The notes under the pieces were generated by a model. The model was not told where the DNA came from, did no database searches, and saw only the letters and a program-made list of their open reading frames with translations. A stretch of 64,000 bases of DNA from Paraburkholderia ginsengiterrae (GTDB lineage: Bacteria; Pseudomonadota; Gammaproteobacteria; Burkholderiales; Burkholderiaceae), in the NCBI RefSeq assembly GCF_001645125.1, contig NZ_LXKA01000243.1, positions 33,297 to 97,296 of the forward strand, in the 5' to 3' direction. Positions 2,063 to 16,014 of the stretch are shown here, piece after piece; the stretch's first letter is position 1; every line of letters begins with the position of its first letter. A program made the translations under genes and the position numbers.

Positions 2063-4123
2063 TCAAATGTCCAGCACCAGCAAATCACTCTTCGCTCTCG
2101 AGCAGCAGGGCGTGAAATGCCCGTCGTCCTCGCGCTGCTCAGCCGTCAGCACGCAGTCGAGGTGCTCGACCTCGCCGTCGATCACGCGCGTCACGCAGGA
2201 GCCGCAGAAACCTTGCTCGCACGAGGTCGGGATACGGATGCCGTATTCGGCCAGCGACGCGGTGATGGTCTTGTGCTCCGCGATCCGGTAGATCCGCCCC
2301 GTGCTCGCGAGCTGGACGTCGAAGGCACGTGCGAGCTTCGGCTTGCCCGCGTGCGCGGCGAAGCGCTCGCAGTGCAGTTGCCGCTCCGGCCAGCCGCGCC
2401 GCCGCGCCGCGAACATCGTCGCGTCGATGAAGCCGGCGGGTCCGCAGACGTACAGATGCGTGATCGGCGACTGCCTGTTGAGCACACGCTCAATATCGAA
2501 GCGCTGCTCGACGGGGCCGTCACTGAAGTGGCACTGCACGCGATTCGCGAACGGCGCACGCACGAGCCGGTTCAGGAACGCCGCGCGGGGCCGTGAACGC
2601 GCGCAGTAATGCATCTCGAAGTCGGCGTCGCGTCGCGCGAGGCGCTCTGCCATGCCGAGAATCGGCGTGATGCCGATGCCGCCCGCGAGCAGCAGCGAAC
2701 GCGGCGCCGCTTCATCCAGCGCGAAGCGATTGCGCGGCGCGCCGATGTCGAGCAGGTCGCCTTCGCGAACACGATCGTGCAACGCGGTCGATCCGCCGCG
2801 CGATCCGTTGACGCGCAGCACGGCTATCAGGTAGCGCCGTCGCTCGCTCGGAGCGTTGCACAGCGAGTACTGACGCACGAGGCCGTCGCCGAGAAACACG
2901 TCGATATGCGCGCCGGCGGCGAACGGCGGCAATTTTCGTCCGCGCGGGTCGATCAATTCGAACGCGCACACGCCGTCGGCTTCGATCGTCTTCTTCGCGA
3001 CGCGCACTGTCAGCCGGGCGTCGCCGGATGCCGCGCCGCGAATGCGGCGCAGGAAGTTGCGCACGCCGGTGTAAGCGAGCACCGGCACCGCCAGCGCGCC
3101 GAACAGCAGCAGCAGCTGCCCGAACACGCCGCCGACCGCGCCGGTATGCCATGACAGCACCCAGAAGTACAGCTTGTGCCCGGCGCTGCTCGTCGAATAC
3201 GGCACGAAGCGCAGCACGTTGCCCGAATACGCGTCGAGGTCCAGCATCGTGCGCGCATTCGGATGCGGCGCGTAGCGATCGATCAGATACATCTCGACCG
3301 GGTCGCGCGACGTCTCAGGGATGTGCATCAGCGCATCCTGCGGGTCGGGCGACAGCAACTGAGCGGTGCGCCAGAACGTCTCGAGCGGCAGGCGCTTCGC
3401 GCCGTCCGCCGGCGCCGCCGACTGCGGGGCCTTGGCGGGCTGCGGCGAGCCGGCGATCGCATAGATGCCGTGCGCGTACCAGTCGAATGCCCACGGCAAT
3501 CCGGTCAGTACCATCGACAACAGCACCGCGCTCGCATACGCGCCGACTGTTCGATGCAGCCGGAACGTGAACGCGGGGCCTCGCGAAGCGGCGCCAAGCG
3601 TGACCGCGTACCGCCAGCCACGACGCGTGCGCGGCCACCAGAGCACGACACCGCCCACGATCAGCAGCAATCCGAACGACATCGCGCTCGTGCCGGTGAT
3701 CAGGCTGCCGTGCTTCATGAAACGAAAGCGATGAATCTGCTCGATCGTGCCGAGCAGGCCGCCATAGCGCGAGCGCTCTCCCAGCACCGCGCCGGTACAC
3801 GGATTGAGATAGACCGAATGCTGATCGTTGAAACGCACCATCGCGGCGGGCATGCGCGGCTCGCCCTCTTTGCCGGCGACAAGCCGGATGTAATCGGGCA
3901 TCGCAGTCGGCCGGACGTGTGCTGCGTTGTCGACCAGCGTATCGAGCGGCACGCGCTCGGTGCAGGTCGGCACCGTCAGCAGGTCACGCTCGAGCACGGC
4001 CTCGAGGTCGGAACGGAAGACGATGGATGCGCCGGTGATCGCCATCAGGAGAATCACGCATCCAAAGGTCAAGCCGCACCAGCGATGGACTTGCAGCACG
4101 AAAGGACGAAAGACCGATTTCAT
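2063..4123 (-). CDS. PepSY-domain membrane protein fused to flavin/2Fe-2S reductase
   Basis: A 686-residue inner-membrane reductase. The N-terminal half is a PepSY-associated transmembrane module (first helix within residues 15-35, then further helices around large periplasmic segments). The C-terminal ~300 residues are a phthalate-dioxygenase-reductase-like module: the flavin motif RQYSL, the nucleotide motif GGIGITP, VCGPAGF, and a plant-type 2Fe-2S site with Cys spacing CEQGFCGSC and a fourth Cys about 30 residues on. In characterised relatives such as FpvG-type proteins, PepSY membrane proteins take part in reducing ferric siderophores in the periplasm. Here electrons could pass from cytoplasmic NAD(P)H through flavin and the iron-sulfur centre. 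The ATG at 4123 starts just before the first membrane helix; longer in-frame starts upstream have no ribosome site. The TonB receptor follows downstream. Two TTCAG-repeat elements lie upstream. Confidence 0.85.
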   Translation of the reverse strand: MKSVFRPFVLQVHRWCGLTFGCVILLMAITGASIVFRSDLEAVLERDLLTVPTCTERVPLDTLVDNAAHVRPTAMPDYIRLVAGKEGEPRMPAAMVRFNDQHSVYLNPCTGAVLGERSRYGGLLGTIEQIHRFRFMKHGSLITGTSAMSFGLLLIVGGVVLWWPRTRRGWRYAVTLGAASRGPAFTFRLHRTVGAYASAVLLSMVLTGLPWAFDWYAHGIYAIAGSPQPAKAPQSAAPADGAKRLPLETFWRTAQLLSPDPQDALMHIPETSRDPVEMYLIDRYAPHPNARTMLDLDAYSGNVLRFVPYSTSSAGHKLYFWVLSWHTGAVGGVFGQLLLLFGALAVPVLAYTGVRNFLRRIRGAASGDARLTVRVAKKTIEADGVCAFELIDPRGRKLPPFAAGAHIDVFLGDGLVRQYSLCNAPSERRRYLIAVLRVNGSRGGSTALHDRVREGDLLDIGAPRNRFALDEAAPRSLLLAGGIGITPILGMAERLARRDADFEMHYCARSRPRAAFLNRLVRAPFANRVQCHFSDGPVEQRFDIERVLNRQSPITHLYVCGPAGFIDATMFAARRRGWPERQLHCERFAAHAGKPKLARAFDVQLASTGRIYRIAEHKTITASLAEYGIRIPTSCEQGFCGSCVTRVIDGEVEHLDCVLTAEQREDDGHFTPCCSRAKSDLLVLDI

Positions 4124-4173
4124 AAGGTTGCCTAAGCGACGACGGTTTACATCCACCATCTTTGTCGGCAAAC

Positions 4174-4189
4174 CTGAATGAAAGCTGAA
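4174..4189 (-). promoter_or_regulatory. TTCAG direct-repeat pair upstream of PepSY reductase gene
   Basis: On the minus strand two perfect TTCAG half-sites lie 11 bp apart (4189-4185 and 4178-4174), 51 bp before the ATG at 4123. Half-site and period match the elements before the other operons of this locus. No clear third repeat and no good -10 hexamer at the expected offset are visible, so this may be an accessory site for the stronger element at 4277-4314. Confidence 0.5.
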
Positions 4190-4276
4190 TTTAGGGCTGC
4201 GTCGGGGTAAGTCCCGATAGGTGATCTGCATGCGAAGATCGCATGCGGCGCCGATACGACCGAACACACCGCGAAC

Positions 4277-4314
4277 CTGAAACGGGCATGAACGCTTCCT
4301 GAATTTCTATTCAG
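4277..4314 (-). promoter_or_regulatory. Candidate response-regulator binding element between PepSY operon and regulator gene
   Basis: Read on the plus strand, half-sites CTGAA (4277), ATGAA (4288), CTGAA (4299) and then inverted TTCAG (4310) are spaced exactly 11 bp apart. This is the same three-direct-plus-one-inverted layout found before the ABC operon and the PstS-like genes. The direct repeats point toward the PepSY/TonB operon, and the site is 96 bp from the regulator ATG at 4410, so both directions could be controlled. Binding by the neighbouring OmpR-type regulator is inferred. Confidence 0.6.
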
Positions 4315-4409
4315 GAATATCGGGAGAAACCCGGCTCATCGCGATGCTTCGCTTGTCACGTCAATCTGCGTGCGCTAGCCTGAAGTTACCGTCGACTGGC
4401 CCATTTATC

Positions 4410-5075
4410 ATGAAAATCCTGATTCTCGAAGACCAACGCAAGCTGGGTCTTTTCCTCAAGCAGGCGCTGTCCGAACGCGCGTACACCGTGACTTGGGTCG
4501 AAAGCTGCGCGCAGGCACGCGAAGCGCTGTGCGAATCGAGCTACGACGTGATCGTGCTCGACCTGGGCCTGCCCGACGGCGATGGTCTCGACCTGCTGCG
4601 CGAGTGGCGCGGGGCCGGCTTCAACGAGCCGGTGCTGATCCTGAGCGCGCGCGACGCGGTCGAGGATCGCATCAAGGGACTCGACGTCGGCGCGGACGAT
4701 TACCTGCCGAAGCCATTCAGCCTCGAAGAGCTGCTCGCGCGCATGCGCTCGCTGTTGCGGCGCCAGTCGTCGGTGAAGGAAACCGTGCTCCAGCATCAGG
4801 GCATCAAGCTCGACCTGCTGAGCCGCACCGTTCACCTGAACGGCAAACCGGTCGACCTGACGAGCCGCGAATTCGCGCTGCTCGAGATCTTCCTGCAGAA
4901 TCCGGGCCGCATCCTCACGCGCACGCTGATCGCGGAAAAGATCTGGGAATCCCATTACGACGTTGACACCAATCTGCTCGACGTCTACATGAGCCGCCTG
5001 CGCGGCAAGTTCGAGGCGCCGCTCGGCAAGCCGTTGTTCAAGACGGTGCGCGGCGTCGGCTATCAGCTGCTATGA
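4410..5075 (+). CDS. OmpR/PhoB-family response regulator
   Basis: A 221-residue transcription factor: an N-terminal receiver (acidic pair E7/D8, phospho-acceptor D51 in VLDLGLPDGDG, conserved Lys in LPKPF) and a C-terminal winged helix from about residue 125 (LTSREFALLEIFLQNPGR; VDVYMSRLR-type recognition region; TVRGVGYQL end). The ATG at 4410 begins the typical first receiver strand MKILILED; an upstream in-frame start adds residues outside the fold. The stop overlaps the kinase start (ATGA), so the pair is translationally coupled. Regulators of this class bind head-to-tail at 11-bp spaced half-sites, which fits the TTCAG elements around this locus. It is therefore the obvious candidate to control the whole 1-17 kb region. 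Confidence 0.95.
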   Translation: MKILILEDQRKLGLFLKQALSERAYTVTWVESCAQAREALCESSYDVIVLDLGLPDGDGLDLLREWRGAGFNEPVLILSARDAVEDRIKGLDVGADDYLPKPFSLEELLARMRSLLRRQSSVKETVLQHQGIKLDLLSRTVHLNGKPVDLTSREFALLEIFLQNPGRILTRTLIAEKIWESHYDVDTNLLDVYMSRLRGKFEAPLGKPLFKTVRGVGYQLL

Positions 5076-6487
5076 AATCCATCGGCGCGCGCCTCGCGAT
5101 CTGCTACGTTCTCGCGTCGACCATTACCTTCGCGGCACTGTTCCTGACCGGGCGGTATTTCGTCGAATATCACGCAATCCACGCGCTGGACCTGGTCATC
5201 CATTCGGAGTTCGAGCAGATCCGCGCGAATGTCGCCGCGCTTGGTCCGACGCCGCCGGAAGCGGCGCTGCGCGAGCGCATGCAGGCTGTGACGCGCAACG
5301 ATCTCGAACTGTTCTTCACCGAGATCTACGGGCCCGGCGGCACGATCGTCTATCGCTCGCCCGGGCTGCGCGGATTCGACATGATTCCGTCTGCCCGCGA
5401 TCAGGAGTTCAACGTCAATCTTGCGGGCCTCGACGAGCTGCGCGCCGGCAAGTTCGCGCTCGGCCCGTACACGGTCGTGATAGCGACGACGAAGCACCAC
5501 GTGCGCGTGGTCATGAGCGGATACGAGCGCACGTTCTACGGGCTGCTGCTCGTGATGATCGCGGTCAGCAGCGTGATCGGCTATGGCTTCAGCCGTATGG
5601 CACTGCGTCCGCTGCGGCTGATTCAGGATACGGCCGACCGCATCCGCTCGGACAATCTGAGCGAACGCATTCCGGTATCGAGTGCGCGTGACGAGATTTC
5701 GGATCTCGCGCGCCTGCTCAATCAGATGTTCGACCGCCTCGAAGAGTCGTTCACCCAGATCCGCCGGTTTACCGCCGAGGCCTCTCACGAACTCAAAACC
5801 CCGCTGACCCTCGTGCGCCTGCAGGCCGAGAAGCTCGTCGTCGACGGCCAGTTGACGCCGGCGCAGGAACATGCGGTGCAGATCCAGATCAAGGAGCTCG
5901 CGCAACTCAACCGGATCATCGAGGATCTGCTGTTTCTGTCGCGCGCCGACGCGTGCGCGATCACGCTCGATCTGCGGCAGCAGGATCCCGAACCGTTCCT
6001 GCAGAGCTTCGCGCAGGACGCGCACGTGCTCGCCGAGTATCGCGAGCAGCGCTTTAACCTGACGCACCACGGCGCGGGGCAGGTTGCAATCGAGCCGAAG
6101 TGGATACGCCAGGTGCTGCTTAACCTGCTCAGCAATGCGCTGTCGGCGTCCCCGCCGGGCAGCCGCGTGACTGTGCGCTCCACGCTGGTCAATCGCTGCT
6201 GGCAAGTGCGTGTCGAGGACGAGGGCCCAGGCGTGCCAGCCGAGCAGCGCGAGCGGATTTTCGAGCGTTTCGTCCGCATCAATCGCCCCGGCAACGAAGA
6301 CAAGGGCAGCGGCCTCGGCCTCGCGATCTGCCGCAGCATCGTCGCGCTGCACGGCGGCCGCATCTTCGCAGAAGCCGGCCCCGGTGGCCACGGGCTGTCG
6401 ATGGTGTTCGAGATTCCGGCAACAACGTCTCCCGACGATGCCGGCAGCGTGCCGTTCGGCACCCCGCATTTGACCGACGCCGCCTGA
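5072..6487 (+). CDS. Membrane sensor histidine kinase
   Basis: A 471-residue kinase, partner of the preceding regulator. Membrane helices at about residues 8-28 and 156-174 enclose a ~125-residue periplasmic sensor. A HAMP domain (about 175-228), a dimerisation domain with H239 in SHELKTPL, and a complete ATPase domain follow: N-box NLLSNALSASPPGS, G1 DEGPGVP, FERF and G2 GSGLGLAI. The periplasmic sensor has no family I recognise, and it could read either the ligand itself or one of the many secreted binding proteins of this locus. The start overlaps the regulator stop by 4 bp. The gene converges on the outer-membrane protein gene ending at 6521. Confidence 0.95.
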   Translation: MKSIGARLAICYVLASTITFAALFLTGRYFVEYHAIHALDLVIHSEFEQIRANVAALGPTPPEAALRERMQAVTRNDLELFFTEIYGPGGTIVYRSPGLRGFDMIPSARDQEFNVNLAGLDELRAGKFALGPYTVVIATTKHHVRVVMSGYERTFYGLLLVMIAVSSVIGYGFSRMALRPLRLIQDTADRIRSDNLSERIPVSSARDEISDLARLLNQMFDRLEESFTQIRRFTAEASHELKTPLTLVRLQAEKLVVDGQLTPAQEHAVQIQIKELAQLNRIIEDLLFLSRADACAITLDLRQQDPEPFLQSFAQDAHVLAEYREQRFNLTHHGAGQVAIEPKWIRQVLLNLLSNALSASPPGSRVTVRSTLVNRCWQVRVEDEGPGVPAEQRERIFERFVRINRPGNEDKGSGLGLAICRSIVALHGGRIFAEAGPGGHGLSMVFEIPATTSPDDAGSVPFGTPHLTDAA

Positions 6488-6520
6488 GCGCGGCTCAGGG
6501 ACGCACATCCGGGACGCGCA

Positions 6521-7330
6521 TCAGAGGTCGCGCTGATAGCCGACGTAGTAGGAAAAGCGATTGGTGTCGTTGACGTGCGTGATGCCGCGCCCAACGGAGA
6601 ACAGGATCCGATCGTGCTCGCTCAGTCCGTAGCTGCCGCCAACGTTGAAGCCGAGCGCGGAAGGATCGATCGTGGTCGCCGCGCCGGTGTAGAACAGCTC
6701 GCCGCCGAGTTCGAGCTTGTCGCCGAACTTGCGCAGCACGGCCCAGCCGGCGGTCCAGTAGCCCTTCTGTCCCGCGTGACGGTTGACGACGTAGCCGCCG
6801 CCGCCGAAGGTTGTCCAGTCGCCGATCGACTTCTGCATCCACAGCGGCAGCAGCACCTGCACATGTCCGGTGCCAAGATCCAGGTGATCGTTGCCGGTCG
6901 GCAGCGTCACGCTCGGCGAGAACGCGACCTGCGGACGCCAGCCCGCTTCGTCCTCCGTAATGAAGCGATATTTCGCACCGAGGTCGATATCGCCGAAACC
7001 GTATCGGGTCGGGTTGCCCGACTCGTGCGTGAACGCCATGCCGAACTTCGTGCCGATCTCCAGATTGTCCAGCAATCCATAGTTGACTTCGAGACCCGGC
7101 AGCATCCCGCTGTGGCTGCCCTCGCGCACGGTGCCGATCGCGGCGGCGTCGATCTGGAAGTGCCCTCGGTCGATGGGCTCGGGATCGTCGGTCACGAACG
7201 GCGGGCCGGCGAACGCGCCATGACTGGCAAGGCAGGCACCGAGCGCGAGCATCGCATGAATGATCCGGACGCGACGCGGCCTGCGCCGTGCGGCTGGTTG
7301 CCGCGGCGTCGAATGACGGCTGAATAACAT
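6521..7330 (-). CDS. Outer-membrane beta-barrel protein, MetA/SphA-like transporter family
   Basis: A 269-residue secreted protein. Its signal sequence ends near ASHGAFA, and amphipathic beta strands rich in Gly and aromatic residues follow (GLEVNYGLLDNLEIGTKFG; FGDIDLGAKYRF; FGGGGYVVN), ending in an aromatic-rich C-terminus (YYVGYQRDL). This resembles the 'phenol-degradation MetA-like' putative outer-membrane channel family. The ATG at 7330 has an AGGAG about 10 bases upstream; a start at 7363 has none. It is the last gene of the ABC importer operon (90 bp after the permease), so a role in passing the substrate across the outer membrane is likely. A beta-barrel beside an NrtABC/TauABC-type importer is uncommon. 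The substrate is not evident. Confidence 0.75.
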   Translation of the reverse strand: MLFSRHSTPRQPAARRRPRRVRIIHAMLALGACLASHGAFAGPPFVTDDPEPIDRGHFQIDAAAIGTVREGSHSGMLPGLEVNYGLLDNLEIGTKFGMAFTHESGNPTRYGFGDIDLGAKYRFITEDEAGWRPQVAFSPSVTLPTGNDHLDLGTGHVQVLLPLWMQKSIGDWTTFGGGGYVVNRHAGQKGYWTAGWAVLRKFGDKLELGGELFYTGAATTIDPSALGFNVGGSYGLSEHDRILFSVGRGITHVNDTNRFSYYVGYQRDL

Positions 7331-7419
7331 GAAGCCGATACTCCTGATCGGAAGTTGAACCATGCACTGCGCGCCGCGCCGGTCCGGCAGACTGACGGAC
7401 CGGCGGGATGGAGATAGGG

Positions 7420-8289
7420 TCAATGACCTGCGTCGGAGAACTGCGGCGGGCGCCACTTCAGCAGCTTGTTCTCGACTTGCGTGAGGATGAACTCGGCGCC
7501 GAGCGCGACGACGGCGAGCACGATCATCGCGGCGAACACACCGGCGGCGTTGAACGCGCCTTGCGCGGTCGAGATCAGGAGGCCAATGCCCTGCTTCGAG
7601 CCGAGAAACTCGCCGACCACGGCGCCGACGAGCGCAAAGCCGAAGCTCACGTGCAGACTCGCGAGAATCCAGCTCATCGCGGCCGGCAGCACGACCGTCA
7701 GCGTCACATCGCGATTTGTTGCACCCAGGATGTGCGCGTTGGCGATCAGATTGCGATCCGCCTCGCGCACGCCCTGGAACGCATTCGCGAACACCACGAA
7801 AAACACCATCACGACCGCCAGCGCGACCTTCGACGCCATGCCGAGCCCGAGCGCGATGATGAACACCGAGCCGAGCACCACACGCGGAATCGAGTTGGCG
7901 ATCTTGATGTAGATGCTGAACACGTCCGCGAGCAGCTTGTTCCGGCCGAGCGCGATCCCGGCTACCACTCCGCCCACCGCGCCGATCAGGAAGCCGAGCG
8001 AAGTCTCTTCGAGCGTCACCAGCACCTGCACCCACAACGGCCCTTGCGACGTGCCCTCGGTCAACCACTGCCAGATCTGCGCGGCGATCAGCGAGGGCGT
8101 CGAGAAAAAGAACGGATCGATCCAGCCGAGCCGGCCGGCCAGCTCCCACCCGCCGAGCGTCACGACTAGCACGGCGACTTGCAACGTGTGCACCAGCATC
8201 TTGCGCCGGCGCATGCTCTCCTGAGCCCGCGTTTCGAGCTGACGCATCTCGGCTTCGTGCGGGGCGGTTCCTGTCATCGGTGTATTCAT
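7420..8289 (-). CDS. ABC transporter permease, SsuC/TauC/NrtB type
   Basis: A 289-residue inner-membrane permease with about six helices and the family's EAA-like cytoplasmic loop (FQGVREADRNLIANAHILGATN). The ATG at 8289 is preceded by TTGAGGAAC; the slightly longer TTG frame at 8301 overlaps that ribosome site and is less likely. The gene sits 27 bp after the ATPase gene. Relatives import nitrate, sulfonates, taurine or thiamine precursors, and sequence alone does not choose between them here. Part of the operon 10232 to 6521. Confidence 0.92.
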   Translation of the reverse strand: MNTPMTGTAPHEAEMRQLETRAQESMRRRKMLVHTLQVAVLVVTLGGWELAGRLGWIDPFFFSTPSLIAAQIWQWLTEGTSQGPLWVQVLVTLEETSLGFLIGAVGGVVAGIALGRNKLLADVFSIYIKIANSIPRVVLGSVFIIALGLGMASKVALAVVMVFFVVFANAFQGVREADRNLIANAHILGATNRDVTLTVVLPAAMSWILASLHVSFGFALVGAVVGEFLGSKQGIGLLISTAQGAFNAAGVFAAMIVLAVVALGAEFILTQVENKLLKWRPPQFSDAGH

Positions 8290-8316
8290 GCTGTTCCTCA
8301 ACGCGCCGCGAAGCGC

Positions 8317-9135
8317 TCAGATGTGGACCTCGTCGCGGAGATCGTTCCAGATCTGACGCGACAATTCGATAAAGCGGGGGGAATAGCGCGCCTCCCCGAC
8401 ATCGCGCGGGCGCGCCAGATCGATCTCATACGACGTCTTGACGGTAGCGGGCCCCGCCGTCAGCACGAACACCTTGTCGGCCAGCGCGATCGCCTCCTCG
8501 ATGTCGTGCGTGACGAACACCACCGATGCGCCGTTCGCGCTCCACAGGTGCAGCAGCTCGTCCTGCATCAGCGTGCGCGTCTGCACGTCGAGGGCGGAGA
8601 ACGGCTCGTCCATCAGCAGGATTTCGGGCTCGTTAATAAAGGTTTGCGCGAGCGCGACGCGCTTGCGCATGCCACCCGAGAGCTGGTGCGGATAGTGGTG
8701 CTCGAAGCGCACGAGGCCGACGCGGCGAATCCATTCCATCGCGCGGTCGCGCGCCGCCGACTTGTTCTCTCCGCGATACAGCGGACCGGCCGCGACGTTG
8801 TCGAGCACGCTCTTCCACGGAAATACCGCGTCGGCCTGGAACACGAAGCCGATGCGCGGATCGATGCCACTCACCGGATTGCCCCAGATGCGGACGTTAC
8901 CGGCACTGGGCTTCGCAAGACCGGTGATGAGGCTCAGCGTGGTGGATTTGCCGCAGCCGGTCGGGCCGACGACGGCGCAGAACTCGCCCTTCGCGACAGT
9001 CATGCTGAAGTTGCGCAGCGCCATGATCGCCTTGCCTTCCGGGCTGACGAAGCGGCGGCTGACGCGATCGAGCTCGATCGCCGGCACGTCGTTGCCGGCG
9101 CAGGTGTGCAGCGCGGTTACCTTGGGGGCTGTCAT
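8317..9135 (-). CDS. ABC transporter ATPase, SsuB/TauB/NrtD type
   Basis: A 272-residue cytoplasmic ATPase that powers the adjoining permease. Walker A is GPTGCGKSTT, the signature is LSGGMRKRVALAQ and Walker B is ILLMDEPFSALD, followed by the switch His in FVTHDIEEAI. The ATG at 9135 follows an AGGCAGG ribosome site, and an upstream in-frame start is not supported. It lies 89 bp behind the binding-protein gene and 27 bp before the permease gene, all on the minus strand. Confidence 0.95.
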   Translation of the reverse strand: MTAPKVTALHTCAGNDVPAIELDRVSRRFVSPEGKAIMALRNFSMTVAKGEFCAVVGPTGCGKSTTLSLITGLAKPSAGNVRIWGNPVSGIDPRIGFVFQADAVFPWKSVLDNVAAGPLYRGENKSAARDRAMEWIRRVGLVRFEHHYPHQLSGGMRKRVALAQTFINEPEILLMDEPFSALDVQTRTLMQDELLHLWSANGASVVFVTHDIEEAIALADKVFVLTAGPATVKTSYEIDLARPRDVGEARYSPRFIELSRQIWNDLRDEVHI

Positions 9136-9224
9136 TGGATTGCCTGCCTTAGCCAGATTGGGCCAGATTGAAATCGACGAAGTGCCCGCGACTGTCCGGC
9201 GGAGGAACATCGCGGCGGGCGCGG

Positions 9225-10232
9225 TTACTTGACCTGCACGGCGCTGACGAACTCGGTCGTGTAAGTCTTCGACAGATCGATCTTGTGGCCCGCCACCGCT
9301 TTGTCGAACGACGACAGGACCTTGAGCACGGTCGGCGGACCCGATTCCGGCATGCGGCCATCCGGGATGAACGTGACCTTGCCGCCAGCGAGCGCCTTCA
9401 CGTACGCGGTGCGATCGCCCGCGTAGTAGTCGGTGGGCATCTGCGCGGTGATCTCGTCGGCGCTATGCGTGTTGATGTAGTGCAGCGTCTTGACGAACGC
9501 ATTCGTGAGCTTCTGGACCGTCGCCTTGTGCGATTGCACCCAGTCGTTCTGCATGTAAAGGCTTGCTGCCGGATAGAGTCCGCCTAGCCATTTCTGCGTG
9601 CTTTCCGGCGAGCGCAGATCGATCAGCACCTTCGCGTCGCCGCCGTTGACGAGGCGCGAGACCGTTGGCTCGGTCGTCATGCCACCGTCGATCTTGCCCT
9701 GCTTGATGGCGGCGATGAACGTGTTGCCGGCGCCGACCGCGAGCGAAGTCATCTCCGACGTCTGCACCCCGTGCGACACGCCCAGATACTGCGTGAGGAA
9801 GTTCGTCGACGAGCCGAGCCCGGTGACACCGAGCGTCAGCCCGCGAAAGTCCGCTGGCGATTTGACCTTGTTGGCCAGCCTCGTCGAGATCACCTCGACT
9901 TCGCCCGGCGTATGGCTGAACTGCACGACCGACTCGATGTACTTGCCCTTCGCCTGCAAGTCAATCGTGTGATCGTAGAAGCCGACGACGCCTTGCACCG
10001 TTCCGGCGACGAGTTCGTTCTCGGCATCGACGCCGGCCGCCTCGTTGATGAGCTCGACGTCGAGGCCCTGTTCCTTGAAATAGCCGAGACGCTCGGCGAG
10101 CTTGGCCGGCAGATAGATCTGCTTTTCCATGCCGCCGACAATCAGCGTGAGCTTCTCGTCGGCGTGGACGGCCGGGGCCAGGGCGCCGAGCGACAGCGCG
10201 CCAACGGCAAGGCGCAGGATTGTCTGTTTCAT
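9225..10232 (-). CDS. ABC transporter substrate-binding protein, NMT1/SsuA-like
   Basis: A 335-residue periplasmic binding protein with a cleavable signal ending APAVHA. The mature chain has the NMT1/NrtA-like two-lobed pattern: LPAKLAERLGYFKEQGLDVEL, a central SPADFRGLTLGVTGLGSSTN segment, and an IKQGKIDGG hinge. It is the first gene of the four-gene operon (binding protein, ATPase, permease, outer-membrane protein). A TTCAG-repeat promoter element lies about 100 bp upstream. Members bind nitrate, sulfonates, pyrimidines or other small molecules; the ligand here is unknown. Confidence 0.92.
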   Translation of the reverse strand: MKQTILRLAVGALSLGALAPAVHADEKLTLIVGGMEKQIYLPAKLAERLGYFKEQGLDVELINEAAGVDAENELVAGTVQGVVGFYDHTIDLQAKGKYIESVVQFSHTPGEVEVISTRLANKVKSPADFRGLTLGVTGLGSSTNFLTQYLGVSHGVQTSEMTSLAVGAGNTFIAAIKQGKIDGGMTTEPTVSRLVNGGDAKVLIDLRSPESTQKWLGGLYPAASLYMQNDWVQSHKATVQKLTNAFVKTLHYINTHSADEITAQMPTDYYAGDRTAYVKALAGGKVTFIPDGRMPESGPPTVLKVLSSFDKAVAGHKIDLSKTYTTEFVSAVQVK

Positions 10233-10333
10233 CAGATGTTCTCCTCAGGTTCGATATGGGTCGCGTGCCGCGCTCGATGCGGCGGCCGCGCCGTGTTCCG
10301 GATCTGCATGTGCGGACTCACGGACTGCTGTCA

Positions 10334-10387
10334 GTTATACGGAGCAACCTTAAAATCAGGCTGAACCGAAAATGAATGTCCGTTCAG
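10334..10387 (-). promoter_or_regulatory. TTCAG-repeat activator site and -10 box for the ABC operon
   Basis: On the minus strand the half-sites are an inverted one at 10387-10383, then TTCAT (10376), TTCAG (10365) and TTTAA (10354), all exactly 11 bp apart. TATAAC begins 15 bp after the start of the last half-site, at 10339-10334. No separate -35 hexamer is needed if an activator occupies the repeats, as in class II PhoB-type promoters. The first ATG of the operon is at 10232, leaving a leader of about 95 nt. Confidence 0.7.
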
Positions 10388-10415
10388 GGACCGCCGGAAC
10401 GGACCCGCACGGCGG

Positions 10416-11969
10416 CTACCGTAGCTTCGCCAGTTCCTCGCGCGCCTCGGCCGCGGTCAGCGGGAAATAAGCCGAATAGCGCACCGGCTCCTGACCCTCG
10501 CGGCTCAGGATGTAGCGCAGGAACGCCTTCACCGGCGCACTCAGCGGACGGTTGATCCGGATGTACATGTAGCGCGTCAGCGGATAGCGGCCGCTCGACG
10601 CGTTCTGCGCATCGAGCGTGTAGAACGGCTCGCCCGCGCGTCGCGCTACCTCGAGGGTCTTCAGGCCGGGGCCGCCTTCCTCGAGCCCGCCGAAACCGAT
10701 TGCGCCGGCATCGCGGGCGATCGCTCGCGCGGTATCGTCGATCGAGCCCTCCTGCACGGCAGCGTTCCACGGCCCGCCTCCAAGCACCATGATCTGCATC
10801 GACATCGCGTTGGGTGCGACGTGCGGCGGCATGTAGATCGTGATCGGACGGTCCGCCCACGCGCCGGTCAGGCCGAGCTGCCCCCAGCGGGTAATGCCGG
10901 GGTTGCGCTGCAGGATCGACGCGAGCTGTGTCAGCGTGATGCCGGTAAGTGGATTGTCCGGGTGCACGAAGACCGCCTGCGCCGTCGTGCGCTGCGGCGT
11001 GTTGAAACCGCCGCGTGCGACGCGAATTTCGAGCGGCTCGGCGCCGTGACGGACCTGCGCGTATGCTGCCCGCTCGTCCGGCCACAGCTCGCGGCCCATC
11101 GGCGCGATCTCGGTGTCCCCGTCGAGCAGCGCGTGAAAACCGTTCAGCGTGCCGAGATGCTCCCATCGCTCGCCCTTTTGCACGCCCGGCTGCACGTGCT
11201 CGAATGCACCGATCCAAGTGTCCATTAGCGATTTCATGCCGTCGCTGCCGATGCTGTCGATCGCGCCGTGCAAGCCGGCCACCGGACGATAGCCGGGCAG
11301 CGCCGCATCCAGGGGCGGCAGGAAGCCGTCGAGCTTCGCGCGTTCGCGAGCCGCATCATCGGCGGTGAGCGGTGTGTAATGCGGCTGCGCCGAGACGATC
11401 GACTGCCCTTCCCCGCTCAGCGCGAATTCTAGAAACGCCTTGATCCTGGGCGGTAACGGCGCGCCGGGACGCCGGTTCACCGCGAGATACGCGGGCTGAC
11501 CGTCGCGATCCGCGACGCGCACGAGCAGCGGCGCCTTCATCATGTCGCCCGCGTACTGATGCGCGTACGGCTGCAACTCCGTCGGCAACGGCTCGCGCGC
11601 GAGCGGCGCGATGTCGGCGTCGCCGAACATCAGCCCGCCGAACGCGGTCGCACTGCCCGCGTGACGCCAGTTTGGCCCGCGCCGGATGCCGGGCTGGTAT
11701 CGCTCGAATGCCGCCAGCCATGCGTCGAGCAGCGGCCCCATCGCATCGTCGCCGACGCAATTCAGTGCTCCGCTCAGATTCGCGTCGGGTCGATAGGTGG
11801 GCAGGCTGGCGCCGGGATCCGCCGCGAACGCGAGACAGGCGGCCAGTGCGAGACCGGCCGCGGCACCGCGCCGGAGCACCGGTCGCAAGCCCTGCGCGTG
11901 AAACTGGGAGGGGCGCGACGCGCGCGCGAGCGGCCGGGCGCGCCACAAGGAAAAACCGAAAGGGACCAC
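10416..11969 (-). CDS. Secreted PstS-fold protein with an extra N-terminal partial repeat
   Basis: A 517-residue secreted protein of the phosphate-binding-like (PstS) periplasmic fold. The GTG at 11969 follows AGGAGAC; a signal sequence ends near LAFA. Residues about 60-220 form a shortened copy of the domain (NLSGALNCVGDDAMGPLLDAW ... FLEFALSGEGQSIV ... TPLTADDA). Residues about 230-517 form a full copy that begins with the matching IDSIGSDGMKSLMDTWIGAF and ends FLRYILSREGQEPV then PLTAAEAREEL. The full copy has the TRWGQLGLTG hinge also seen in the two paralogues at 12266 and 14221. No pstCAB genes are nearby, so it is not a standard phosphate importer subunit. The gene is divergent from 12266 and has its own TTCAG-repeat promoter. 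Confidence 0.85.
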   Translation of the reverse strand: MVPFGFSLWRARPLARASRPSQFHAQGLRPVLRRGAAAGLALAACLAFAADPGASLPTYRPDANLSGALNCVGDDAMGPLLDAWLAAFERYQPGIRRGPNWRHAGSATAFGGLMFGDADIAPLAREPLPTELQPYAHQYAGDMMKAPLLVRVADRDGQPAYLAVNRRPGAPLPPRIKAFLEFALSGEGQSIVSAQPHYTPLTADDAARERAKLDGFLPPLDAALPGYRPVAGLHGAIDSIGSDGMKSLMDTWIGAFEHVQPGVQKGERWEHLGTLNGFHALLDGDTEIAPMGRELWPDERAAYAQVRHGAEPLEIRVARGGFNTPQRTTAQAVFVHPDNPLTGITLTQLASILQRNPGITRWGQLGLTGAWADRPITIYMPPHVAPNAMSMQIMVLGGGPWNAAVQEGSIDDTARAIARDAGAIGFGGLEEGGPGLKTLEVARRAGEPFYTLDAQNASSGRYPLTRYMYIRINRPLSAPVKAFLRYILSREGQEPVRYSAYFPLTAAEAREELAKLR

Positions 11970-12000
11970 GTGTGTCTCCTGCCTGATAAAAACCGTCCCA

Positions 12001-12054
12001 ACGGTACGGCGGCACGCTGAAGCGAACCTGAATCAACGCTGAAATTTCGTTCAT
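12001..12054 (-). promoter_or_regulatory. TTCAG-repeat activator site and -10 box for the 11969 gene
   Basis: On the minus strand three perfect TTCAG half-sites start at 12043, 12032 and 12021 (11-bp period), preceded by an inverted half-site at 12050-12054. TACCGT, a TAnnnT -10, lies at 12006-12001, 15 bp from the start of the last repeat. This is the cleanest copy of the element. It stands back to back with the divergent copy at 12072-12125, separated by only 17 bp. Confidence 0.75.
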
Positions 12055-12071
12055 CCTCGGCCCGGCATTCC

Positions 12072-12125
12072 ATGAACGCATTTTCAGGATGCCTTCAGAC
12101 TGCGTTCATTCAACGGCGGTATCGT
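12072..12125 (+). promoter_or_regulatory. TTCAG-repeat activator site and -10 box for the 12266 operon
   Basis: Plus-strand half-sites are an inverted ATGAA at 12072, TTCAG at 12083, TTCAG at 12094 and TTCAT at 12105, on an exact 11-bp period. TATCGT follows at 12120, again 15 bp from the start of the last repeat. The leader to the GTG at 12266 would be about 135 nt. Confidence 0.72.
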
Positions 12126-12265
12126 GATTTCGCATTGGCTCGCTCCCTGGTTTGCCTGATTTCGCGCCGGTCGGCACTACGCTCACAATTGACCTATTGG
12201 CGCCGCCGACCACACATCGAAGCGGTCCGTAAAACGCACGCATTCAAAAAAGGAGGAGATATCTC

Positions 12266-13477
12266 GTGAATCGAAACGAACCCTGTTTCGCGGCGCCCGC
12301 GTCCGGCCCGGCCCACCATCTGCGCTATCTGGCCGTGGCCGCGGCCGCTGCGACAGCCGCGTCATGGGCGATGAACGCCGAATGCGCGGACGCCCAGGGC
12401 ACCACCGCACCGCCGATGGTCGAATGGGTTGTGCCTGCGCTGAAAACAGTCGCGCCGCAGACCAAGGAGCAAGCCGACGAGGGCGAGAAGTCGGGACGCG
12501 CGCTGCCCGAGCCGGAAATCCTGCAGCCACGCCTCGACGCCGCATTGCCCGACTATCAGCCCCGCACCGACCTCAAACTGTCAGGCTCGTTCGCGGGCGC
12601 GACCTCGGACGTGCTGCCATTTCTCGCTCAACGCTGGATCGAAGGCTTCAAGAAGTACTATCCAAACGTCGACATTCACATTGCGCCGCCGTACGCGGGC
12701 AGCCTCGGCGCGAAGGAACTGGTCAAGCAGAAGCTCGACTTCGTGTTCGTGTCGCGCGAGCTGAAGCCGAGCGACATCACCGACTTCAAGGCCAAATTTG
12801 GCTACGACCCGCTGAGCGTTCCGGTCTCCGGCGGCTCGTACCGGCATTTCGGCTTCCTCGACGCCGTCGGCTTCTTCGTCAATAAGGACAACCCGATAGA
12901 GAAGCTGACGTATCAGCAGATCGACGCGCTGTTCTCGCGCACGCACCTGCGCGGCGGCAAGCCGATCAAGACCTGGGGCGATCTCGGGCTGACCGGTGAC
13001 TGGGCGGACAAGCCCGTGCACGTCTACGCGATCAAGCCGTGGAACGGTTTCGAGGAGTTCGTCCGGCAACGCGTGCTGAGCACCGACGGTCAGCGCGGCG
13101 AGTGGCGCGACGACATCCATTACGACAAGCTGGTGTTCCCGCTCGCGAAGGACGTTGCCGACGATCGCTACGGCATCGGCTACTCCGGCATCGCGTACAT
13201 CGACGCGCCGGTCAAGATGCTGCCGCTCGCCGTTTCGGACAACGCCCCGTTCGTCGCGCCGACTTACGAAAACGTCGCGCGTGCAACGTACCCGCTAAGC
13301 CGCCTGATCTGCTTCAACACCAACAAGGCGCCAGGCAAGCCGCTCGAACCTGCTATCGCCGAGTTTCTGCGCTACGTGCTCAGCAAGCAGGGCCAGCAAG
13401 CCGTGCTCGACCACGGGATGTACATGCCGCTGCGCGCGCAGCAAGTAGACAGCTCGCGCGCGATGCTGAGCCCCTGA
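12266..13477 (+). CDS. Secreted PstS-fold binding protein
   Basis: A 403-residue secreted protein of the PstS-like periplasmic fold. The GTG at 12266 follows AAGGAGGAGATATCTC; a membrane-spanning signal region covers about residues 15-35. The domain runs from LKLSGSFAGATSDVLPFLAQ through LGAKELVKQKLDFVFVSREL, NKDNPIEKLTYQQIDALFS and TWGDLGLTGDWADKPVHVY to FLRYVLSKQGQQAV. The equivalent of the PstS N-terminal phosphate-loop is changed (SGSFAGATSD), so phosphate specificity cannot be assumed. It is the first gene of a two-gene unit with 13576, and its nearest relatives are the paralogues at 10416 and 14221. No permease of the PstCA type is present. Confidence 0.88.
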   Translation: MNRNEPCFAAPASGPAHHLRYLAVAAAAATAASWAMNAECADAQGTTAPPMVEWVVPALKTVAPQTKEQADEGEKSGRALPEPEILQPRLDAALPDYQPRTDLKLSGSFAGATSDVLPFLAQRWIEGFKKYYPNVDIHIAPPYAGSLGAKELVKQKLDFVFVSRELKPSDITDFKAKFGYDPLSVPVSGGSYRHFGFLDAVGFFVNKDNPIEKLTYQQIDALFSRTHLRGGKPIKTWGDLGLTGDWADKPVHVYAIKPWNGFEEFVRQRVLSTDGQRGEWRDDIHYDKLVFPLAKDVADDRYGIGYSGIAYIDAPVKMLPLAVSDNAPFVAPTYENVARATYPLSRLICFNTNKAPGKPLEPAIAEFLRYVLSKQGQQAVLDHGMYMPLRAQQVDSSRAMLSP

Positions 13478-13521
13478 CGCTTCCGCTGAACTTTCGCCGC
13501 CTCACTTCCGCCGTATCCCGT

Positions 13522-13554
13522 GCCGCCCGCTCGCCTTTTTCGTTTGCGGGCGGC
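13522..13554 (+). other. Intercistronic hairpin between PstS-like and small secreted gene
   Basis: A perfect 9-bp inverted repeat, GCCGCCCGC at 13522 and GCGGGCGGC at 13546, with a 15-nt loop. No U-run follows, so it is not a normal intrinsic terminator. It could stabilise the upstream message or reduce read-through into the gene at 13576. Confidence 0.4.
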
Positions 13555-13575
13555 AACTTCTTCAGGAGCTTCCCC

Positions 13576-14040
13576 ATGCACCGCTCATCCAGAGCCGCGA
13601 CCGCGGCGCTGCTGCTCGCATTCGCGCTGCCCGCGCGCGCCGGGATGCAAGCCGCGCCTTACGCGCAGCAACTCGTCGACACCACGCTCGCCGCGCATCC
13701 CGAGTTGACGATTCTCGCGCTTCACGTCACGCCGCCCGCCGGCGCGGAAAACGTGATCATCGCGTCGAATATTGGCCGCATTGGCAAGCCGGCCGACGCG
13801 GACGATCTGGCCGTGCTCGGCAGCGGCAAGCCGCGTGTCGAGACCACAAAGACCGGCGACCTCTCGGTCGAGCTGCCGATGCGCGACGCCGCGGGCCAGA
13901 CCATCGGCGTGATCGGCTCGACATTCCACTACACGCCCGGCGGCGACCGCGACGTAATCGTGCAGCAGGCCGAGCGCGTGCGCGACGAACTCGCTGCCCG
14001 CACGCCGTCGCTGTCCGCGCTGTTCCAGCCGGCACACTGA
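13576..14040 (+). CDS. Small secreted single-domain protein, same domain as TonB receptor N-terminus
   Basis: A 154-residue exported protein. The ATG at 13576 follows AGGAGC; a signal peptide ends near LPARA. The mature part is one copy of a ~120-residue domain: YAQQLVDTTLAAHPEL, NVIIASNIGRIGKPADADDL, SVELPMRDAAGQTIGVIGS and VRDELAARTPSLSALF. It matches the second N-terminal repeat of the receptor at 1-1964 almost word for word across the GRIGKPADADDLAV stretch, and more distantly the protein at 15460. I do not recognise the family; the strand pattern resembles an extracytoplasmic PAS/Cache-like sensor fold, but that is a guess. Probably co-transcribed with 12266 (99-bp gap). Confidence 0.8.
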   Translation: MHRSSRAATAALLLAFALPARAGMQAAPYAQQLVDTTLAAHPELTILALHVTPPAGAENVIIASNIGRIGKPADADDLAVLGSGKPRVETTKTGDLSVELPMRDAAGQTIGVIGSTFHYTPGGDRDVIVQQAERVRDELAARTPSLSALFQPAH

Positions 14041-14057
14041 ACGTCGCCGGCGCATTC

Positions 14058-14111
14058 CTGAATTTTCATTCAGACGAACTTCAGGTCGGCTTTAACTTCG
14101 TGGACGACGAT
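14058..14111 (+). promoter_or_regulatory. TTCAG-repeat activator site for the 14221 gene
   Basis: Inverted CTGAA at 14058, TTCAG at 14069, TTCAG at 14080 and TTTAA at 14091, on an exact 11-bp period. The hexamer at the standard offset is GACGAT (14106-14111), a weak -10; GATATT lies 3 bp further on. The ATG is at 14221. Confidence 0.65.
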
Positions 14112-14220
14112 ATTGACAGGCGACCTCATTGAGCGCGGTACGCACCGGCTCCGCCACCGCCGTCGGGCCTGCATGCGCGGCCACCCGATCGACAACGACG
14201 ACACAAATCAGGAGACGTCC

Positions 14221-15321
14221 ATGAAGCAACAGAAGGAGATGCGCGTTTTGCGCAAGTACGCGGCAGTCTCGAGCGCAGCGATGATTGGCATCGCGGCGCT
14301 CGGCACGCTAGCGTCGCCGTCCGCGTTCGCGCTGAAATATGCAGCGGTCGAGCATCACCTCACGGTCGACTCGTCGATTCCGAGCTGGCAGCCGGGCCCG
14401 GTCGACGTGCACCCCGAAGAGGAACTGAACATTGTCGGCGCGGACGTGATGGACGAAATCACGCTCGGCTGGATCAAGGAATTCCGCGAGGCGTATCCGC
14501 GCCTGAGCGTGACGATGGAAGCGCGGGCGTCCGGCTCGGGCGGCCCGGCGCTCACCGCGGGAACGGCGGATCTGGCGCCAGTCGGACGTGAGCTGCTGCC
14601 CGCCGAGGAGAAAGCGTTCGTCGACAAGTACGGCTACAAGCCGCTCGCGATCCGCGTGGCGACCGGCAGCGTCGGCTCGCTCGGCAAGACCGCGGCGTCG
14701 GTCGTGATCGTCGACAAGGACAATCCGATCAAAGGCCTCACGCTCGCGCAACTCGACGCGATCTATTCGAAGACGCGCAATCGCGGACACGCCGACATCA
14801 GCACATGGGGCGATCTGGGGCTCGGCGGCGACTGGGCCAACCGGCCGATACACCTGTACGGCCTGAAGCCGGTCAACGGCATCGAGTACTACCTGCAGAT
14901 GAACGTGCTCGAAGGCGGCGCTTACAAGGACAACATCCAGTTCGTGAAGGGCAAAGGCTTCACGCACGCGTTCACGGTCGCTGCCGAGGACATGGCAACG
15001 CATCCGGGCGGACTCACCTACGCGCTGCTCGCGAACGTCAGGCCGAACGTGAAGGTCGTGCCGCTCGCCACAACCGACGGGCAGCCGTTCGTACTGCCGA
15101 CGGTGCAGACCGTCTACACGCACCAGTATCCGCTGTCGCGCTATGTGTACATCTTCGTGAACAAGAAGCCCGGCGAGCCGCTGCAGCCGAAGATCAAGGA
15201 GTTCCTGAAGCTCGTGCTGAGCAAGCAGGGCCAGGACGTCGTTGCGAAGGAAGGCGTCTACATTCCGCTGACCCCGGCCGTCGTGAAGGAAGAGCTGGCG
15301 AAGCTCGATCAGGCGAGTTGA
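14221..15321 (+). CDS. Secreted PstS-fold binding protein
   Basis: A 366-residue exported protein. The ATG at 14221 follows CAGGAGACGTCC, and a signal peptide ends near PSAFA. The mature PstS-like domain begins LNIVGADVMDEITLGWIKEF and keeps a ligand-loop pattern EARASGSGGPALTAGTADLA that is closer to true PstS proteins (which carry GSGG) than its two paralogues. The hinge DISTWGDLGLGGDWANRP and the end FLKLVLSKQGQDVVAKEGVY are shared with the 12266 product. It has its own TTCAG-repeat promoter, and no transporter partner of the PstCAB type is present. It is followed by the small secreted gene at 15460, again under a separate copy of the element. Confidence 0.88.
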   Translation: MKQQKEMRVLRKYAAVSSAAMIGIAALGTLASPSAFALKYAAVEHHLTVDSSIPSWQPGPVDVHPEEELNIVGADVMDEITLGWIKEFREAYPRLSVTMEARASGSGGPALTAGTADLAPVGRELLPAEEKAFVDKYGYKPLAIRVATGSVGSLGKTAASVVIVDKDNPIKGLTLAQLDAIYSKTRNRGHADISTWGDLGLGGDWANRPIHLYGLKPVNGIEYYLQMNVLEGGAYKDNIQFVKGKGFTHAFTVAAEDMATHPGGLTYALLANVRPNVKVVPLATTDGQPFVLPTVQTVYTHQYPLSRYVYIFVNKKPGEPLQPKIKEFLKLVLSKQGQDVVAKEGVYIPLTPAVVKEELAKLDQAS

Positions 15322-15356
15322 ATGCGCAACCGCGCGGGCGGGCGCGCCGTTGCAAG

Positions 15357-15410
15357 CTGAATTCGCATTCAGATGACGTTAACGCTCGTTCAAGGTGGCG
15401 AACCTACACT
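15357..15410 (+). promoter_or_regulatory. TTCAG-repeat activator site and -10 box for the 15460 gene
   Basis: Inverted CTGAA at 15357, TTCAG at 15368 and TTAAC at 15379 on an 11-bp period; a further TTCAA at 15389 is one base out of register. TACACT at 15405 is exactly where the register predicts the -10. The leader to the ATG at 15460 is about 45 nt. Confidence 0.65.
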
Positions 15411-15459
15411 CGACTCGCACCTGCTTTCATCACGCTCGTATGACAAACAGAGGAGAGAC

Positions 15460-16014
15460 ATGAAGACCCTGACCCAAACCCTTCTCATCGCGATGTTCGG
15501 CGCCATGTCGGCATCCGCGGTGTACGCGGCCGATGCAGCGCCTGCCGCTCCCGCCGCCCCTGAAGCGCACCCGAAGAACTGGACGCCGCCGAGCGAGAAG
15601 ATCTACGCGCAAAAGCTGTCCGACCAGATCATGGCGCAGCACCCCGAACTGCTCAGCGTGACGTTCCACGGCACACCTCCGGGCATGACGGATGGGTACA
15701 CAATGTTCGCCGGCTCCTATCACGACCGCATCGGCAACGCCGACGATCCGGATGACATCGACATCTCGAAGAAGGGCATCACGATCGTCGATCCGCGCTG
15801 GCACCGCCCGAACGATACCGTCCAGAAGTTCGTCATGATGCTGCCGCTGCGTGACGCGAAAGGCAATAACGTCGGCGAAATCGTGCTCGCGTACAAGAAC
15901 GACGCCGCGCACACGAAGAGCGAGACGCAGTTCTTCCTCGCGTCGACGCACCTGCGCGATGCGCTTGCCAAGCAGATTCCGACCTTCGGCACGCTGTTCG
16001 AGGCCGCCAAGTAA
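15460..16014 (+). CDS. Small secreted protein of the receptor N-terminal domain family
   Basis: A 184-residue exported protein. The ATG at 15460 follows GAGGAGAGAC; a signal peptide ends near VYAADAAPA, followed by a short Ala/Pro linker. The single domain has the same landmarks as its paralogues: YAQKLSDQIMAQHPELLSV, a TMFAGSYHDRIGNADDPDDI segment, VMMLPLRDAKGNNVGEI, and LRDALAKQIPTFGTLFEA at the end. It is closer in pattern to the first N-terminal repeat of the TonB receptor (DPDD, IGE). No known family is recognised. Its own regulated promoter and a downstream terminator make it a single-gene unit. Confidence 0.8.
   Translation: MKTLTQTLLIAMFGAMSASAVYAADAAPAAPAAPEAHPKNWTPPSEKIYAQKLSDQIMAQHPELLSVTFHGTPPGMTDGYTMFAGSYHDRIGNADDPDDIDISKKGITIVDPRWHRPNDTVQKFVMMLPLRDAKGNNVGEIVLAYKNDAAHTKSETQFFLASTHLRDALAKQIPTFGTLFEAAK

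Follow-up and report, generated by a model that had tools for sequence, protein, structure and literature searches.

A regularly spaced array of half-sites recurs before genes of a two-component locus in Paraburkholderia ginsengiterrae, in a stretch of 64,000 nucleotides that we refer to as the window (NCBI RefSeq assembly GCF_001645125.1, contig NZ_LXKA01000243.1, positions 33,297 to 97,296 of the forward strand). The array consists of an inverted CTGAA half-site followed by three tandem TTCAG half-sites in 11-bp steps, with a −10 hexamer in fixed register behind them, and its occurrence is far beyond chance. In all likelihood, judging from sequence comparisons, this element is an activator-dependent promoter at which a bound regulator of the OmpR/PhoB family would replace the −35, and it would define a regulon at this locus. 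The array stands before most operons of the locus, and the response regulator encoded there next to its sensor kinase very probably binds it.

A sequence-only reading of this DNA had reported seven elements with TTCAG-like half-sites 11 bp apart, and all seven are present. As it also stated, an inverted half-site comes first in all but the first of them (CTGAA in E2, E3, E6 and E7; ATGAA in E4 and E5), and these six fit the full pattern YTGAA-N6-TTCA-N7-TTCA-N7-TTNA-N11-TANNNT with one or two mismatches. E3 (10334–10387, minus strand; CTGAA, TTCAT, TTCAG, TTTAA, −10 TATAAC) precedes the operon of an NMT1-type ATP-binding cassette (ABC) importer, and E4 (12001–12054, minus; ATGAA and three times TTCAG, −10 TACCGT) precedes a double PstS-like gene. 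On the plus strand, E5 (12072–12125; ATGAA, TTCAG, TTCAG, TTCAT, −10 TATCGT) precedes the PstS-like gene at 12266 and then a small exported protein; E6 (14058–14111; CTGAA, TTCAG, TTCAG, TTTAA, with GACGAT in the −10 slot) precedes a third PstS-like gene at 14221; and E7 (15357–15410; CTGAA, TTCAG, the degenerate TTAAC and TCAAG, −10 TACACT) precedes the genes for P0004 and a YncE-like protein. The slot of E6 holds CACCAT in three relatives (L044–L046) and CATCAT in a fourth (L049). The reported TAnnnT-like hexamer, 15 bp from the last half-site in four copies, is correct for TACCGT, TATCGT and TACACT; TATAAC is TAnnnC.

The two remaining elements lie on the minus strand. The array reported at 4277–4314 exists as part of E2 (4261–4314; CTGAA, TTCAG, TTCAT, TTCAG), but it faces the gene for a PepSY protein and not the regulator gene, and the TGTTCG in its slot is no −10. 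E1 (4158–4189) contains the two direct half-sites reported at 4174–4189 (TTCAG at 4189 and 4178), to which we add its strand and an in-register AAAGAT at 4163–4158, beginning 15 bp from where the last half-site starts. Half-sites and hexamer of E1 are kept in four relatives (L044, L045, L046 and L049), in which the E2 array also has no −10 in its slot; L051 has CATCGT there. E1, which is nearer the PepSY start, is the likelier promoter of the PepSY–TonB operon, and E2 could act as an upstream helper. Between E2 and E1, at about 4200–4216 on the minus strand, a short inverted repeat (TCGGGACTTACCCCGA or near it) is kept in the same four relatives and may be a second operator.

We scanned the source genome (8.53 Mb in 393 contigs) by pattern. 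At up to two mismatches the full pattern occurs six times, every time in this locus, so sites with the same spacing are not as common elsewhere, the comparison that the sequence-only reading had proposed. Elsewhere in the genome it was found in two places only, each with three mismatches, and the pattern read backwards was not found at all. The shorter TTCA-N7-TTCA-N7-TTNA occurs nine times genome-wide, five of them inside the locus, with no match to its backward version. Exact pairs of TTCAG at distance 11 number five in 4100–15460 of the window and zero in 17300–64000, and 60 dinucleotide-shuffled versions of the window gave no full-pattern match at up to three mismatches. Two arrays elsewhere were set aside as probable chance: C67:121808, which by eye is close to a gene end, and C311:62686, which overlaps a Shine–Dalgarno-like stretch ahead of a PepSY gene. 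Further arrays lie at C134:41930 and C342:49898. Because the pattern was partly derived from the window's own sites, we took independent evidence from orthologous loci and other records.

Orthologous loci were collected with the sensor kinase as query, keeping the best 80 of 87 stretches that encode a relative; they come from Burkholderia, Paraburkholderia, Pandoraea, Ralstonia, Collimonas, Massilia, Roseateles, Polaromonas, Rhodanobacter, Dyella and many metagenome-assembled genomes (MAGs), some labelled Verrucomicrobia. In these loci, triplets of TTCAG with an 11-bp step (at least 13 of 15 letters) number 85, as against 0–10 for five permuted motifs. A logo of 80 non-redundant seeds, picked by half-sites only (one being the window's own E2, with a few chance-looking seeds retained), gave the consensus CTGAA-N6-TTCAG-N6-TTCAG-N6-TTCAG-N10-TAnnnT and shows no −35 apart from the half-sites. 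A matrix of the 20 half-site columns, from which the tested locus was left out and its relatives were not, found 151 sites above a line of 16 bits in 66 of the 80 loci (1.36 Mb), compared with 0 of 80 shuffled loci. The arrays have therefore been neither lost nor disordered in orthologous loci, a comparison that had also been proposed from the first reading. The hexamer, unused in the matrix, was found as TAnnnT at +37, counted from the first direct half-site, in 94 of the 151 sites and at most twice at each other offset between 28 and 49. Among 87 non-redundant sites, TAnnnT occurs 50 times at +37 and at most once elsewhere, and the looser nAnnnT 71 times at +37 and at most 11 times elsewhere.

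A separate selection by three direct half-sites, with neither the inverted site nor the hexamer used, yielded 82 arrays from 43 loci (60 non-redundant). Of the 82, 65 have CTGAA (at least four of five letters) at −11, and every other offset between −25 and −5 has it 0–3 times; no half-site of either orientation stands at −22, and TTCAG is found at +33 in three. TAnnnT is at +37 in 45 of the 82 and at most twice at each other offset. The peaks at −11 and +37, with no site at −22 and rarely one at +33, indicate four half-sites, the first inverted and upstream, and a −10 in fixed register. In the spacing spectrum of the 80 loci, CTGAA-N6-TTCAG was counted 61 times versus 0–4 at other gaps from 0 to 15, TTCAG-N6-TTCAG 71 times versus 0–7 at other gaps, and the reverse order TTCAG-N6-CTGAA once. 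Across relatives the spacers are variable, whereas the half-sites, their orientation and the −10 register persist.

The element also follows the two-component pair across genomes. We surveyed 200 family genomes, among them the window's own, and detected a kinase relative (query, N-terminal 189 residues; E ≤ 1e-20, a threshold that a diverged kinase could escape) in eight. The pattern, at up to two mismatches and with its backward version as control, occurs in all eight of these and in 10 of the 192 kinase-less genomes (Fisher p 8e-10). Two plasmids outside the matrix carry it as well. On that of Paraburkholderia PGU19, whose regulator is 91% identical, five sites exceed 18 bits and one scores 14.7; on that of Azoarcus KH32C (74% identical), four exceed 32 bits and one scores 14.8, with TAGGCT, TACATT, TAGAGT, TATAAA and GACACT at +37. 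Four of the Azoarcus sites lie in front of genes annotated as TonB receptor or substrate-binding, and the fifth in front of a small hypothetical gene that is itself followed by a substrate-binding gene. By contrast, five paralogous copper-regulator loci (regulators 45–47% identical) gave best scores of 4.2–15.1, under the 16-bit line. The pair, apparently unstudied, occurs in beta- and gammaproteobacteria as well as some Verrucomicrobia MAGs, although the Verrucomicrobia-type phyla are less secure because MAG contigs can be mis-binned; among the titles and abstract openings returned from one open-access library we found nothing on this motif or locus.

An OmpR-type regulator had been placed at 4410–5075, and the product of this plus-strand gene (P0001) does match PF00072 (receiver; 90.6 bits) and PF00486 (winged-helix Trans_reg_C; 86.9 bits). 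The gene is overlapped by that of the sensor histidine kinase (5072–6487, plus), which has HAMP, HisKA and HATPase_c domains and a sensor region without a Pfam match. The phospho-acceptor D51 lies within an LDLgLPDGDG stretch conserved in 67 orthologues, and the recognition helix is near-invariant, with N188, L189, V192, Y193, L197 and R198 in all 67; it reads VYMSRLR, compared with VAVRRLR, VAMRRLR or VAIRRLR in the five copper paralogues. The best NCBIfam model is CopR/CusR/SilR (TIGR01387; 219.4 bits, below its cut-off of 279.2), and the regulator falls below the cut-off of each of the best 25 of the 93 NCBIfam models matched.

The regulator–kinase operon has an ordinary promoter of its own (TTGTCA-N17-TAGCCT, 4353–4381, plus), and within the window no element of the array type points at it, so that the sequence-only reading was wrong, for this operon, in placing the element before every operon. 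In a comparison by eye, 9 of 11 upstream regions keep TTGTSA-N17-TAGCCT (L051 and L157 differ); among the nine are L050 and L156, where no divergent array was seen. In L052, a pair of TTCAG with the 11-bp step is directed at the regulator gene, and autoregulation is therefore possible in that species.

Regulators of the OmpR/PhoB family dimerize through their receivers and set their DNA-binding domains head-to-tail on tandem half-sites (PMC4660055 and PMC3973317; here and below, as given in the excerpts of the cited sources). In the PhoB–σ4 structure, σ4 touches the −35 as well as the domain on the half-1 site, and in both PhoB and PmrA the tandem sites are bound head-to-tail with σ4 at the half-site over the −35 (PMC4660055). 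A head-to-tail layout replacing the −35 had been proposed for our element; the fixed −10 register and the tandem sites agree with it, but one half-site, always upstream, is inverted and has the geometry of a copper box. As in the Pho box, where the activator lies over the −35, the direct half-sites are 6 bp apart (PMC8041468, PMC4660055), and our regulator would likewise take the −35 position. They differ from it, as had been noted, in their letters (TTCAG versus GTCA(C/T)), and further in the inverted upstream half-site; the PhoB model of NCBIfam gives our regulator 177.8 against a cut-off of 296.2. The PmrA box, made of head-to-tail hexamers 5 bp apart, has the same 11-bp step (PMC3973317), yet it comprises two half-sites (CTTAAT and CCTAAG), neither inverted, as opposed to four with one inverted here, and the PmrA model scores 214.8 against a cut-off of 330.

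The inverted pair resembles the copper box of CopR, CusR, PcoR and HprR, CATTACAAAATTGTAATG, an inverted ATTAC-N6-GTAAT pair (PMC9302797) with the same 5-N6-5 geometry, and CopR/CusR/SilR is also the closest NCBIfam model. Of the five copper control loci, L159 has an exact copy of this box 68 bp ahead of copR, and L160 has a copy with one mismatch 78 bp ahead of the regulator gene; no copy is that close in the other three. Here, unlike in the copper regulators, the letters are CTGAA/TTCAG, two extra tandem half-sites follow, the recognition helix is different, and the target genes encode PepSY, TonB, binding and YncE proteins, with none for metal efflux or metal oxidases and no copper genes. 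The same geometry with other letters and another helix agrees with a related clade of distinct specificity. UzcR of Caulobacter offers a further analogy: its partly palindromic CATTAC-N6-TTAA has a similar 5-N6 geometry, and its targets include TonB receptors and other envelope genes (PMC8963506), but its letters differ and the excerpt of PMC8963506 does not mention further tandem half-sites. The excerpt of PMC545781 concerns Fur sites. The element thus appears to be a four-site operator that joins two known geometries, the inverted pair of the copper box and the tandem array of PhoB, in the regulon of one OmpR-family regulator. With its letters, orientation and register all fixed, it lends itself to the question of how a single such regulator works on inverted and tandem sites at once.

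We propose that, upon a signal, the kinase would phosphorylate the response regulator, which would then bind the four half-sites in their 11-bp steps, the inverted CTGAA upstream and the three tandem TTCAG after it. The last half-site, 15 bp ahead of the −10, would substitute for the −35 contact, and RNA polymerase would be recruited to a −10 that has no −35 of its own, giving activation rather than repression. Recruitment is the natural reading of a last half-site at that distance with no other −35 in the logo, and a −10 register fixed in distant bacteria is expected if a bound protein replaces the −35 contact. The regulon so switched on would comprise, at this locus only, the PepSY–TonB operon, the NMT1-type ABC importer, the three PstS-like proteins, P0004 and the YncE-like protein.

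Several observations weigh against this proposal. E2 has no in-register −10, and 14 of the 80 loci with a kinase relative, some on short contigs, have no site above 16 bits. The matrix retained relatives of the tested locus, a weakness that leaves the −10 result and the three-half-site test unaffected. Among 150 collapsed elements in relatives, 49 stand before no labelled gene, some of them at contig ends. The 10 kinase-less genomes contain 12 matches, somewhat above the four backward-control matches over all 200 genomes (by eye, several of the 12 are AT-rich or repetitive), and the alphaproteobacterium Polymorphobacter (regulator 64% identical) has a single, weaker site (23.1 bits) whose slot holds GAAAAA. 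One could suppose that the local regulator represses, or has mixed roles, with the array blocking or tuning a weak promoter, as the position of E2 between divergent genes without a −10 and the poor −10s in some slots (GACGAT, CACCAT) would allow. We consider this improbable, because a single exact distance from array to −10 is kept in distant bacteria and the missing −35 fits an activator that replaces it.

Binding by PhoB or another OmpR-family protein, with the local pair a mere neighbour, would suit the PstS-like genes among those faced and the half-sites of PhoB, which are also 6 bp apart and have a TCA core (PMC8041468). This is very unlikely, however, given that the pattern tracks the kinase, that the element is limited to this locus in its own genome and that its half-sites depart from the Pho letters. 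A general phosphate regulator is expected in most of the family genomes. Isolated arrays elsewhere in the genome, at one to three mismatches, might suggest chance, or a mobile or simple repeat without a regulatory role. We find that scarcely credible against the empty shuffled windows and loci, the constancy of half-sites, orientation and −10 register amid varying spacers, and the siting of the arrays before genes in many loci. For the activator-dependent promoter that we favour, a more tentative extension is a hybrid operator on which the regulator is bound head-to-head at the outer pair and head-to-tail at the inner sites of one rigid array, so that two dimers, oppositely arranged on the DNA, form one activating complex; a copper-box-like ancestor might have gained PhoB-like tandem sites, and the outcome might be a widespread envelope-uptake regulon.

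The genes faced in the window are as follows. E1 and E2 face the PepSY_TM protein (2063–4123, minus; ferredoxin-reductase-like C-terminal part), followed by the TonB-dependent receptor (1–2066, minus), which runs off the window and has two P0004-like domains at its N-terminus. Behind E3 lie an NMT1-type substrate-binding protein (9225–10232), an ABC ATPase (8317–9210), an ABC permease (7420–8301) and a predicted exported protein without a Pfam match (6521–7327; annotated as 'transporter' in the PGU19 relative), all on the minus strand. The PstS-like proteins (PBP_like_2) are encoded at 10416–11969 (minus; the double gene), 12266–13477 (plus) and 14221–15321 (plus), and the small exported protein, of the P0004 kind, at 13576–14040 (plus). 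E7 is followed by P0004 itself (15460–16014, plus; exported, without a Pfam match) and the YncE-like beta-propeller protein (16110–17213, plus). In relatives, 101 of the 150 collapsed elements face a gene of these target families: YncE 27, NMT1 17, P0004 14, PstC 9, PepSY 9, PstB 8, PstA 7, TonB 7 and small P0004-like 3. With motif, promoter map and target list in hand from sequence alone, the signal and the regulon become directly testable.

The P0004-type exported domain, for which Pfam has no family, makes up two small proteins of the window and is found twice more in the N-terminal part of the TonB-dependent receptor. P0004 is present in 7 of the 200 family genomes, all seven being among the eight with the kinase. 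It has no PDB sequence match below E 0.2, and its low-confidence model (mean predicted local distance difference test score 65.4) gave no Foldseek match at E ≤ 0.001 (best 0.036). In the annotated part, no Pst permease genes lie between or beside the three PstS-like genes (10416–15321). Phosphate is a candidate signal on account of the PstS-like genes only; half-sites and model scores give it no support. In some relatives the element stands before other genes, namely a YceI-like gene in L114 and L115 (Verrucomicrobia MAGs) and L119 (an unassigned MAG), and a gene for an Fe/Mn superoxide dismutase in L123 (a Methylacidiphilales MAG). Near the pair, L158 has an ATP-citrate-lyase-type gene and a 2-hydroxycarboxylate transporter, and L156 has a gene for a CoA-binding protein, neighbours that may point to a role for an organic acid.

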